DNA of 64,000 nt from Pyrinomonadaceae bacterium (GTDB lineage Bacteria; Acidobacteriota; Blastocatellia; Pyrinomonadales; Pyrinomonadaceae), in assembly GCA_019694355.1 (NCBI GenBank), contig JAIBCB010000003.1:434001-498000 (forward strand), in the 5' to 3' direction. The translations under genes were made by a program, and so were the position numbers. The notes beneath the pieces are model-generated. The model saw only the letters and a list, made by a program, of their open reading frames with translations. It searched no databases and had not been told where the DNA came from. Shown one piece after another: positions 20,720 through 44,070 of this stretch (positions are counted from its first letter, which is position 1; the number at the start of each line of letters is the position of its first letter).

Positions 20720-21240
20720 AAGTCCCCGTAGGGGACGCGAGATAATAGCCAGGGTAAGGCCGCTGAATTGCCACGAGCTTTAGCTCGTGGTTAGCGTTCC
20801 TCAATATTCTGCCGGAGCGTGCGGAGCACGCGACAGTCGGCGGGCAAGCCGCCTCCGGGATTCTGAGTTGGCTTGGGACGGTCGGGCGAGCCCGACCGCA
20901 CTGCGATGCGGCAAGCCGCAAGAGAATGAGTAAGATGCAGAATGTCGCCGGGGCGACGCGGAAGGACTACACTGGCTGCGAGAGAAACGCCGCGAGCGTT
21001 TTAGCTCCGTTAGGAGCGGAATGTTTGTAGGACACGTCGCCCGATATTTCCTGGAGCGTGCGGAGCACGCGACAAGCTACGTCGGCGGCAAGCCGCCTCC
21101 GAGGATGGTTTTGGGCAGGGTTCCACGGCATAAATGCCGTGGCAATTCGGGGGGGAAGCTGCGTTGAGTGTTACGCCCTTGCTAACGTGCGGGATTCTGC
21201 AATGCTGACCGCCCGCTCACGCAGGCGGTTCTGACTAGAA
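20720..21240. repeat. Field of palindromic REP-like repeats
   Basis: No gene is seen here. Successive short hairpins include TCCCCGTAGGGGA (20721), CACGAGCTTTAGCTCGTGG (20772-20790), GTCGGGCGAGCCCGAC (20881) and AGCTCCGTTAGGAGCG (21003). A unit of about 48 bp starting GGAGCGTGCGGAGCACGC and ending in an AAGCCGCCTCCG hairpin occurs twice (20814-20860 and 21053-21102). At 21176-21237 a unit starts CCCTTGCTAACGTGCGGG and ends in a CCGCCCGC/GCAGGCGG hairpin. Several families recur elsewhere in the window. Confidence 0.8.
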
Positions 21241-28189: not shown

Positions 28190-28400
28190 TTCCCCGGGGC
28201 TCTCCCGTCTATTTGCGGTGAAGCTCTTCTGGCGGCTCTGCCGCTCTATTTGCGGTGAAGCTCTGCTTCACCGTCGAAGAGTCACTCTCCTTCTTTCGGG
28301 CTTTGCCCATCTATTTGCGGTGAAGCTCCTTCTTTCGGGCTTTGCCCGTCTATTTGCGGTGAAGCTCTGCTTCACCGACAGCAGTTCTTACTCAACTCTC
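28190..28400. repeat. REP-like array, 3' side of the RAYT gene
   Basis: Four copies of the core TCTATTTGCGG (starting 28208, 28245, 28310, 28349). Each is preceded by a small hairpin (CGGGCtttGCCCG or GGCGGCtctGCCGCT type) and followed by GGTGAAGC, which in two copies closes a hairpin with GCTTCACC. Linkers such as GTCGAAGAGTCACTC recur. The array abuts the transposase stop codon. Confidence 0.9.
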
Positions 28401-28405
28401 GGCGG

Positions 28406-28951
28406 CTACGCCGCACGCCAATCGATCTTCTTGTGATCTGTAAGCAGCGGTTCATTCTCCAGCGGCTTCAAGTGCCATTGCCGTGCGCTCGAAAACAGAT
28501 AGTCATCAGGGTGTTCTACCGATCCGGAACGCACCGGGTTAAGGTGAATGTAATTCACCTTCTGCATAAATGCGTCCTCGCCGGTAATCCGAATTGCGTT
28601 CGGATGGTGTTCGTAAACAGAGTGCTTATGGCTTTTCCCTCTCTCCTGAATGCGGAGTTTTGCAAGCGAATCTTCGTAACCCTTCTCTTTGAGATGGTCG
28701 ATCAGGCGCTTTGCTGAGATCCCGTTCAGGTAACGCAGGACATCCTTTATTTCGCGGGCGTTGTCGGTGAGCACGTGCGTGTGGTCAGCCATTATGACAA
28801 ATGCAAAGACCATGATCCCGCCGGAAATACGGGCCTCATTGAAAGCGTCACAGACCACTTGCTTGATCGCATCCTTCTGAAAGATCGGCAGTCTGTTATG
28901 CGCAACAGAAGTTAGGAAGTATGCGGGGCTGTCTCTTGAGATCCTGAACAT
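28406..28951 (-). CDS. REP-associated tyrosine transposase (RAYT, Y1/HUH family)
   Basis: About 181 residues. MFRISRDSPAYFLTSVAHNR begins the domain. FVIMADHTHVLT carries the HxH (HUH) metal site, and MQKVNYIHLNPVRSG carries the probable catalytic tyrosine and the typical RAYT motif. YLNGISAKRLIDHLKEKGY lies between them. RAYTs cut and join single-stranded DNA at REP hairpins. The reading frame extends about 55 codons upstream, but that part is repeat DNA read through, so the ATG at 28951 is preferred. The gene is embedded between two arrays sharing one repeat core, which supports an active RAYT-REP pair. Confidence 0.88.
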   Translation of the reverse strand: MFRISRDSPAYFLTSVAHNRLPIFQKDAIKQVVCDAFNEARISGGIMVFAFVIMADHTHVLTDNAREIKDVLRYLNGISAKRLIDHLKEKGYEDSLAKLRIQERGKSHKHSVYEHHPNAIRITGEDAFMQKVNYIHLNPVRSGSVEHPDDYLFSSARQWHLKPLENEPLLTDHKKIDWRAA

Positions 28952-28961
28952 TGAGTGGGAG

Positions 28962-29510
28962 CGGCGGCATAGCCGCATAGGTTGAGTAACATTATCCGGA
29001 AAAGCAGAGCTTTTCCGCAAATAGAGCGGCAGAGCCGCACGAAGAAAAGATCTCTTTAGATTCTCTCTCTTCCCCGGGGGCTTTGCCCGTCTATTTGCGG
29101 TGAAGCTTTGCTTCAACGTCGAAGATTCACTCTCTTTCTTTCTTTCGGGCTTTGCCCATCTATTTGCGGTGAAGCTTGCTTCACCGTCGAAAAGTCACTC
29201 TTTTTCTCCGGGCTTCGCCCGTCTATTTGCGGTGAAGCTTTGCTTCAACGTCGAAGATTCACTCTCTTTCTTTCTTTCGGGCTTCGCCCGTCTATTTGCG
29301 GTGAAGCTCTGCTTCACCGGCAGCGGCTCATTTTTAATCCTCGGAGGCTTAGCCTCCGACGGCGGCAAAGCCGCATAGGTTGAGTAGCGGCGGGACGGAA
29401 AAGCAGAGCTTTTCCGCAAATAGAGCGGCAGAGCCGCACGAAGAAAAGATCTCTTTACAGTCACTCTCTTTCTTTCGGGCTTCACCCGAGCCGCACGAAT
29501 AAACCTAGAC
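28962..29510. repeat. REP-like array, 5' side of the RAYT gene
   Basis: Four direct copies of TCTATTTGCGG (29090, 29159, 29222, 29291) and two inverted copies (29015-29025, 29414-29424). The inverted copies belong to a unit of about 61 bp, repeated at 28998-29058 and 29398-29458, that starts GGAAAAGCAGAGCTTTTCC and contains GCGGCAGAGCCGC. Further hairpins are GGCGGCATAGCCGC and CGGAGGCTTAGCCTCCG. No gene was seen in the array. Confidence 0.9.
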
Positions 29511-30036: not shown

Positions 30037-30117
30037 AAGTTGCGGAGTTGCGAAGTTGCGAAGTTGCGAAGTTGCGAAGTTGCGAAGTTTCGAAGTTGCG
30101 AAGTTGCGAAGTTGCGA
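30037..30117. repeat. 8-bp tandem repeat GAAGTTGC
   Basis: About ten contiguous units of GAAGTTGC, with two single-base variants. The 640-bp stretch between 30020 and 30657 otherwise shows no convincing gene: it holds this repeat, a REP-like copy at 30208-30243, ATTCTCAATTTTCC doublets near 30270 and repeated AAATGCG words. Confidence 0.9.
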
Positions 30118-30868: not shown

Positions 30869-31273
30869 TTAAATAAAAATATCGATCGGAAGCCTGAACC
30901 GTTCGGAAAGCTTTCGGGCCTGGGATTTACTTATCTCCCGCTTGCCGTTGAGGACCTGTGAGACGGTGCCTTGCGAGCTAAAGATATCGAGTAGATCGGC
31001 CTGCCGCAGATCGTGCTCGCGCATAAGTTCCCGAAGGGCGACCGCGGGACTCGTGCGAGGGATCGGATAGGCCTTTTCCTCGAAAGCGTCGATGAGCGTG
31101 GCCAGCAGTTCGAGCAGCCGGCTCTCTTCGGGCGACCGTCCGCGCGCTCCCTTTTTCATTAGTTGAAGAGCTATCGCGAGAGCCTTCTCGTTCTCTTCCT
31201 CAGTGCGGATCACGCCCGGTAAATATTTGGCCAGGAGGGTTGCATATGCTTTGGGATCGTATCTTTTTGTCAT
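30869..31273 (-). CDS. higA: HigA-type antitoxin with C-terminal HTH (E. coli type)
   Basis: 134 residues, the length of E. coli-type HigA. The N-terminal helical part (YATLLAKYLPGVIRTEEENE; SPEESRLLELLATLIDAFEE) binds toxin. The C-terminal XRE domain (LRQADLLDIFSSQGTVSQVL, NGKREISKSQARKLSERF) binds DNA. It is 25 bp downstream of the HigB-type toxin and 7 bp upstream of the AbrB-like gene. This antitoxin is of a different class from the HigA/VapI protein at 23934. Confidence 0.88.
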   Translation of the reverse strand: MTKRYDPKAYATLLAKYLPGVIRTEEENEKALAIALQLMKKGARGRSPEESRLLELLATLIDAFEEKAYPIPRTSPAVALRELMREHDLRQADLLDIFSSQGTVSQVLNGKREISKSQARKLSERFRLPIDIFI

Positions 31274-31298
31274 ATCAATGCTTTGCTGCTTTTAGCAA

Positions 31299-31592
31299 TC
31301 AGCTTTCCACTTGCCGCTTGCCACGATCATATTCGGCATGACTCATCACGGCTCGGATCCAGACCGTTTGAATGCTGTGATCCAGGTGGACGACAAGCCG
31401 GTATTTATTGCCTCCGACATTAAAAACTATGCAGTCACCTACAAGATCGGCGCTTGGAAAAGTCCGTCGTACCTCGGCAAAATTCTTCGCCGTAAACCCT
31501 TTTACTTTTGCGTACCAATCTCGAAGCACCTCTTCCGATTCTGGATGAGTCTCCCAGAATGTACGCAACGCCTTGCGGCTTATTATTCTCAT
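31299..31592 (-). CDS. higB: HigB-type toxin (E. coli type)
   Basis: 97 residues. MRIISRKALRTFWETHPESE, then DWYAKVKGF, then FPSADLVGDCIVFNVGGNKYR, then VVHLDHSIQTVWIRAVMSHAEY match the HigB_toxin family, a RelE-like ribosome-dependent mRNA interferase. The start at 31592 fits the family N-terminus. It lies about 125 nt downstream of a promoter with a palindromic operator. A 12-codon mini-ORF starting at 31661 behind a strong GGAG site is in frame but closed by TGA, so it could be a leader peptide. Confidence 0.9.
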   Translation of the reverse strand: MRIISRKALRTFWETHPESEEVLRDWYAKVKGFTAKNFAEVRRTFPSADLVGDCIVFNVGGNKYRLVVHLDHSIQTVWIRAVMSHAEYDRGKRQVES

Positions 31593-43921: not shown

Positions 43922-44035
43922 TAGCGGCTTTGCCGCTCTATTTGCGGAAAAGTTTACTTTTCCGGAAGCGGGTGAGAAAAGAGCGGAGGCTGGGCCTCCG
44001 AAGCTTAATACACAGGCCCTGTCGGTGAAGCGGAG
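43922..44035. repeat. REP-like copy between the M16 genes (RAYT family)
   Basis: AGCGGCTTTGCCGCT is followed by TCTATTTGCGG (43937-43947) and a GGAAAAG/CTTTTCC hairpin, the same order of elements as the arrays around the RAYT at 28.4-29.5 kb. CGGAGGC/GCCTCCG (43984-44001) and another partial motif follow. Confidence 0.8.
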
Positions 44036-44070
44036 GTTTGGCACGAAGGACGTGCTCCAATATAGGTTTT

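Follow-up and report, generated by a model that had tools for sequence, protein, structure and literature searches.

A RAYT gene of a soil Acidobacterium lies between inverted double-hairpin ends in an element that appears to have changed location between related species

RAYTs have been described as domesticated, single-copy genes that do not change their place in the chromosome (PMC2817692) and show no sign of mobility (PMC8266576). REPINs have been suggested to derive from repeats that once flanked an autonomous ancestor, and the origin of REPs and REPINs from such a mobile ancestor is open (PMC3116915). A RAYT gene surrounded by a dense array of hairpin repeats in a soil Acidobacterium raises the question of whether the gene simply resides in its array or belongs to an element that has itself moved. 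We analysed a stretch of 64,000 nucleotides of this genome (the window), and we searched the whole assembly, which is labelled G000 in all comparisons (3.4 Mb in 8 contigs, 98.7% complete). Its closest relatives with a name belong to the Acidobacteria, and several are Pyrinomonadaceae.

The original prediction had counted ten copies of the core TCTATTTGCGG around the gene, eight direct and two inverted, and exact matching gives the same result. The left block contains four copies, all on the plus strand (28208, 28245, 28310 and 28349), and the right block contains six (29015 and 29414 on the minus strand; 29090, 29159, 29222 and 29291 on the plus strand). A further copy reported at 43937 is likewise exact and lies on the plus strand. 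When one mismatch was allowed, the window contained 14 copies against a shuffle mean of 1.34, and none of 100 shuffles reached 14. Counting the core genome-wide had been named beforehand as a test, and the core does recur, with 34 exact copies in the G000 genome compared with 7 for a reversed-pattern control. A 13-nt hairpin, H1, adjoins 31 of these 34 cores, including every core of the two blocks, in line with the link to small hairpins noted originally. The 31 units are distributed over 13 loci, with 10 of them at the RAYT. The three cores without an adjacent H1 are probably chance occurrences, so that the true unit count is likely to be 31.

Structural examination of the repeats revealed a unit in which H1 (e.g. 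GCGGCTNTGCCGC or CGGGCTTYGCCCG) is followed by a 9-nt linker, TCTATTTGC, and then by a second hairpin, H2, with GGTGAAGC or GGAAAAGC stems. The 11-mer is the linker of this two-hairpin end plus two bases of H2. The original reading of a RAYT-REP pair holds in that the RAYT has its own genome-wide repeat family, while the 11-mer itself is not the REP. Two inverted H1-TCTATTTGC-H2 ends bound a 703-bp element with the RAYT inside (Table 1). The array in which the gene had been said to be embedded is real, and the gene actually sits inside this element. Hairpins similar to H3, the inner hairpin found at both sides of the gene, adjoin the RAYT gene in relatives too, and RAYTs lie in equivalent boxes of inverted ends in about 40 related species.

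Table 1. Positions of the RAYT element and its associated repeats in the window.
Feature	Position	Strand	Details
Three T-type units, direct repeat	28195..28335	+	cores 28208, 28245, 28310; 2 of 3 with half H2 only
RAYT element, 703 bp	28336..29038	-	outer H1 edge to outer H1' edge; cross-species alignment limits
T-type end	28336..28377	+	H1 28336-28348, linker TCTATTTGC 28349-28357, H2 28357-28377
Inner hairpin H3	28402..28414	.	overlaps RAYT stop codon
RAYT gene (REP-associated tyrosine transposase)	28406..28951	-	181 aa from ATG; HUH DHTH, YIHLNP
Inner hairpin H3	28964..28976	.	12 nt ahead of RAYT start codon
A-type end	28997..29038	-	H2 28997-29017, linker 29017-29025, H1 29026-29038
62-bp exact repeat, first copy	28997..29058	+	A end plus 20 bp outside
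Three T-type units, direct repeat	29077..29277	+	cores 29090, 29159, 29222; spacing 69, 63, 69 to next
160-bp REPIN-like unit	29278..29437	.	inverted T + A ends, gene-less
62-bp exact repeat, second copy	29396..29457	+	
Dispersed unit between two M16-peptidase-like genes	43924..44060 (end approximate)	+	A-type end intact, other end decayed

We then examined base pairing in 57 distinct units from G000 and related genomes, and 98.4% of the pair cells were paired; the units had been selected by hairpin-like length, which somewhat favours pairing and does not account for compensatory changes. Two-sided changes were observed in 10 of the 13 pairs (87 cells compared with 23.9 in shuffled sets, none of 500 being as high), and this covariation was lost when the partner was slid by one base. 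Both hairpins are kept through compensatory changes, and the linker is invariant within the family. Constancy of the linker within a family is by construction, because the units were found via the linker; the hairpins were not used to find them. The foot next to H2 is TTGC in G000, and the canonical GT[AG]G foot of REPs was not found there; in relatives the feet are GTGC, GAGC, CTGC and AAGC. TnpAREP classes without GTAG are already known (PMC6006769).

The HUH/Y1 transposase expected between the two core blocks is present, with its DHTH motif and a match to Pfam Y1_Tnp (26.1 bits, cut-off 23). The protein also matches NCBIfam NF047646, "REP-associated tyrosine transposase", barely above the threshold (80.9 bits, cut-off 80). 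In an alignment of 22 sequences, His59, Tyr134, Asn138 and Pro139 are invariant and His57 is almost invariant; the residue between the two histidines is Thr, which is not strictly hydrophobic. The tyrosine motif is Y...NP, in contrast to the Y...Q of IS200/IS605, which groups the protein with TnpAREP class 2 and not with IS200 (PMC6006769). No Pfam domain beyond Y1_Tnp was detected in the protein, and the C-terminal helix-turn-helix extension of TIRYT subclass 2.1 was not found. Searches with the protein sequence gave no match in PHROGs and nothing below E 0.05 in the PDB. The predicted structure (pLDDT 89.4, pTM 0.87) had as its best PDB matches in a fold search ISDra2 TnpA and E. coli TnpAREP bound to REP (4er8, TM 0.61 by query length).

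Comparison of the foot before H2 in 47 RAYTs gave TATTTGC, ATGTGC, ATGAGC, GCCGAGC, CCAAGC, CAGTGC and a few others. When these labels, some of which were read by eye, were placed on the protein tree of the 47 RAYTs, 13 changes were required, with a minimum of 10 and a mean of 31.5 for shuffles, which ignore relatedness. The linker follows the RAYT lineage. The GTAG of E. coli and the guides of IS608 (PMC8266576) suggest, by analogy, that specificity may reside in the foot. The copy number of the core showed no clear relation to the presence of a TATTTGC RAYT across the genus.

A second linker family, CAGTGCGGTCGGGC, is present in G000 with 58 exact copies and 97 copies with up to one mismatch, many of them as similar inverted pairs. 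It occurs genome-wide, including at 20878-20920 of the window, and it outnumbers the resident RAYT's own family. No RAYT of the CAGTGC type was found in G000, where the sole RAYT is of the TATTTGC type. A candidate second RAYT, suggested by a 47%-identical match to a CAGTGC RAYT, was rejected, since the match is the same TATTTGC gene. The related genome G003 contains a CAGTGC RAYT and 42 exact CAGTGCGGTCGGGC copies, and G017 contains 19 exact copies with no CAGTGC-type RAYT found. At the site of the G003 CAGTGC RAYT, the flanks in G000 match those of G003 and enclose 87 bp, including H1-linker-GG joined straight to the far flank, and G022 has 93 bp that are free of repeats. This pattern fits loss of the CAGTGC RAYT in G000, and gain in G003 beside an older repeat would be the alternative. 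Repeats that outlive their RAYT are known in Pseudomonas (PMC3686654).

In order to locate the limits of the element, we compared it across species. In alignments with the RAYT elements of other species, the matched part of the G000 element begins at 28338 and ends at 29038-29040, and so spans H1 to H1'. When the G061 element served as the query, alignments to G027, G017, G000, G014, G009 and G016 began at query positions 1612-1615 and finished at 2315-2320, which are once more the H1 edges. Between species, homology of the element breaks off no more than about 4 nt from the outer edges of H1. Outside H1, the adjoining 14 nt vary widely (78 unique sequences), with a weak pyrimidine preference only and no fixed target motif, and no target duplication is evident beside the element ends.

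The genes on both sides of the G000 RAYT locus are kept in G003 and G017, with about 490 bp between them and no RAYT. In G017, a RAYT with 87% amino acid identity to that of G000 lies 312 kb away from the equivalent locus on the same contig. G003 and G000 are collinear with G017 in this region, and both lack a RAYT there; the flanks are syntenic, and the sequence in the gap is unrelated. Since each member of this closest pair has no RAYT at the other's site, the element has either moved or been differentially lost. The eight RAYTs of the TATTTGC type have no flanking genes in common between species (1.5-5 kb compared). Exact empty sites were found neither for the TATTTGC-type element at the compared sites nor for the dispersed units, for which base-level comparison at several loci gave no exact join, because the intergenic sequence is too divergent, contains other repeats or shows internal deletions. 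Based on these observations, we suggest that there is good evidence, from comparison of genomes, that the RAYT element changed location between species, although a clean insertion with exact joins was not among the compared sites. The changed positions could also stem from horizontal gain, or from several old copies that were lost differentially.

Here, we need to consider that the gene may be an ordinary domesticated RAYT, which is immobile and moves repeats only, its positions reflecting old paralogues and differential loss. This explanation agrees with the published view (PMC2817692, PMC8266576) and with the finding that a genome contains a single full copy of a given linker type; just one full TATTTGC-type RAYT in each genome is not the pattern of an active insertion sequence. 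Synteny of RAYTs with other linker types in L089/L260 and in L092/L257/L259 indicates that those stayed put, and the CAGTGC RAYT site in G000 resembles loss. However, eight RAYTs of one clade occupy eight unrelated places and their homology ends at both H1 edges, so that immobility would demand many ancestral copies of which all but one were lost each time, and we consider it unlikely. It is more doubtful still that RAYT elements owe their movement to horizontal transfer plus homologous recombination at the repeats, with no part played by the transposase that they encode. Intergenic regions do contain many H1-like hairpins and other repeats, and the content of the G017 RAYT region varies between species. 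Yet the G000 and G017 RAYTs (83% identity in DNA) have diverged about as much as neighbouring genes (83-91%), which indicates no recent import, and recombination between short repeats would bring flanking sequence along, of which none is seen. Strong hairpins in intergenic DNA, and the roles of REPs elsewhere (PMC8266576), would agree with arrays that act as transcription terminators or in RNA stability and were spread by host selection. This reading is very improbable, as it does not account for a linker that is invariant yet changes with the RAYT lineage, or for the gene-containing version.

The composition of the array and of the dispersed copies bears on how an element with these ends could give rise to repeats. 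A repeat of 61 bp had been noted at 28998 and 29398; the repeat is real, and it is 62 nt long and begins at 28997 and 29396, so that the earlier positions were off by 1-2 nt. It takes in 20 bp past the element end, and local tandem duplication thus fits better than a second insertion, of which we had considered the repeat a possible sign and which we rejected for this reason. The 160-bp gene-less copy, which shares these 20 bp as well, points to tandem duplication in place, probably followed by loss of the gene; its strand folds into one long hairpin with both H1 hairpins at the foot (z = -7.05 compared with shuffles).

Dispersed copies in G000 are mostly inverted unit pairs, about 9 in number, with cores 117-167 bp apart and extra hairpins between them. 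Five of the nine match the non-hairpin spacer of the right end of the RAYT element (e.g. AGGTTGAGTA; best 26/27 nt). These five also match its left end (best 27/33), with scores that few of 500 shuffles reached. The remaining four match the interior of the element in the inner hairpin only. Because at least five paired units carry subterminal sequence of the RAYT element, they look like internally deleted, REPIN-like RAYT elements. G017 retains a RAYT fragment with one end. The gap between the M16-like genes at 43937 is 171 nt with the unit in G000 and 11-15 nt in five relatives, where the unit is absent.

Several further features of the repeats were observed. Some units (L102:1564-1990, L103:1357-1534 and L269) contain an insert of about 40-60 bp (ACACTGGC..GCCAGAACCTC) in the apex of H2, and at the guaA locus such an insert is present in G000 and absent from the orthologous G003 copy. 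Tandem half-units broken in the H2 apex occur in both the TATTTGC and the CAGTGC families (28208-28335; L280:12100-12280), which hints at a common route of array making. Mini-hairpins GGCNNNGCC are found in the window at about twice the expectation (52 compared with 22.9, 0 of 100 shuffles), partly owing to the RAYT array. In G017, a unit at L229:5830-6150 lies within a longer inverted repeat (GAGGCTGTGTCA..TGACACAGCCTC), perhaps through insertion into another element.

Returning to the mobile element, we think it likely that until recently, if not to the present day, the RAYT element still looked and behaved like a small insertion sequence. The RAYT would bind the ends as single-stranded hairpins, with the linker foot TTGC acting as a guide in the manner of GTAG, and its tyrosine would nick the DNA. 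What then moved on single-stranded DNA, with no target duplication, would have been either the entire element or a REPIN-like derivative with an internal deletion. The dense array by the gene would have arisen by local tandem duplication, in which one copy (29278-29437) lost the gene, and loss of a RAYT would leave its repeats as orphans. The G000 locus and its relatives look like the autonomous ancestor of REPINs still in being. For the broader proposal that this ancestor survives, with a RAYT that is still mobile, inverted double-hairpin ends, REPINs produced by internal deletion and linker "addresses" that diversified along with the RAYTs in the genus, we judge the case to be evenly poised.

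Comparison with known systems revealed both likenesses and differences. The REPtrons of E. coli, Stenotrophomonas and Pseudomonas (PMC8266576, PMC2817692) share the HUH-Y1 protein with Y..NP, usually one copy per genome, and the gene flanked by its own hairpin repeats, whose sequence is matched to the protein. In contrast, the G000 element is without a GTAG foot, each of its ends consists of two hairpins around a 9-nt linker, and its gene is inside sharp inverted ends at locations that differ between species. REPINs of Pseudomonas fluorescens SBW25 (PMC3116915) also consist of two inverted repeats with a short spacer and are thought to be moved by the RAYT, whereas here at least five copies have a spacer that matches the ends of the RAYT element itself, as internal deletion predicts, and there are about 9 pairs (31 units in all) compared with hundreds in Pseudomonas. 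TIRtrons (PMC3733652), which include Koribacter of the same phylum, Acidobacteria, have a tyrosine transposase (TIRYT) between inverted repeats, some of them double-palindromic; the corresponding subclass has a median length of 238 aa (PMC6006769) and the RAYT here has 181 aa, and the ends begin with GCGGCTNTGCCGC or CGGGCTTYGCCCG, not with GGGGWSAS. Finally, IS200/IS605 elements such as IS608 and ISDra2 share the Y1 HUH fold and hairpins near both ends, with no target duplication evident here, but the motif is Y..NP and not Y..Q, the ends are inverted copies of each other, and the element contains no tnpB.

Taken against the open-licence literature, the RAYT/REP/REPIN type of system is known, and the non-GTAG double-hairpin ends together with the changed locations are unusual, although earlier reports may exist. 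The genus offers about 40 natural pairs of RAYTs and ends with different linkers, RAYTs at differing positions, apparent deletion derivatives, and genomes that keep the repeats without the RAYT. With this natural variety, the recognition code and the origin of REPINs both become open to test.

Two other features lie to the right of the array in the window. At 30040-30115, the 8-mer GAAGTTGC occurs in a tandem array immediately right of a 158-aa gene, and on the minus strand at 30869-31592 a candidate HigB-type toxin gene (31299-31592) is adjacent to a putative helix-turn-helix antitoxin gene (30869-31273).
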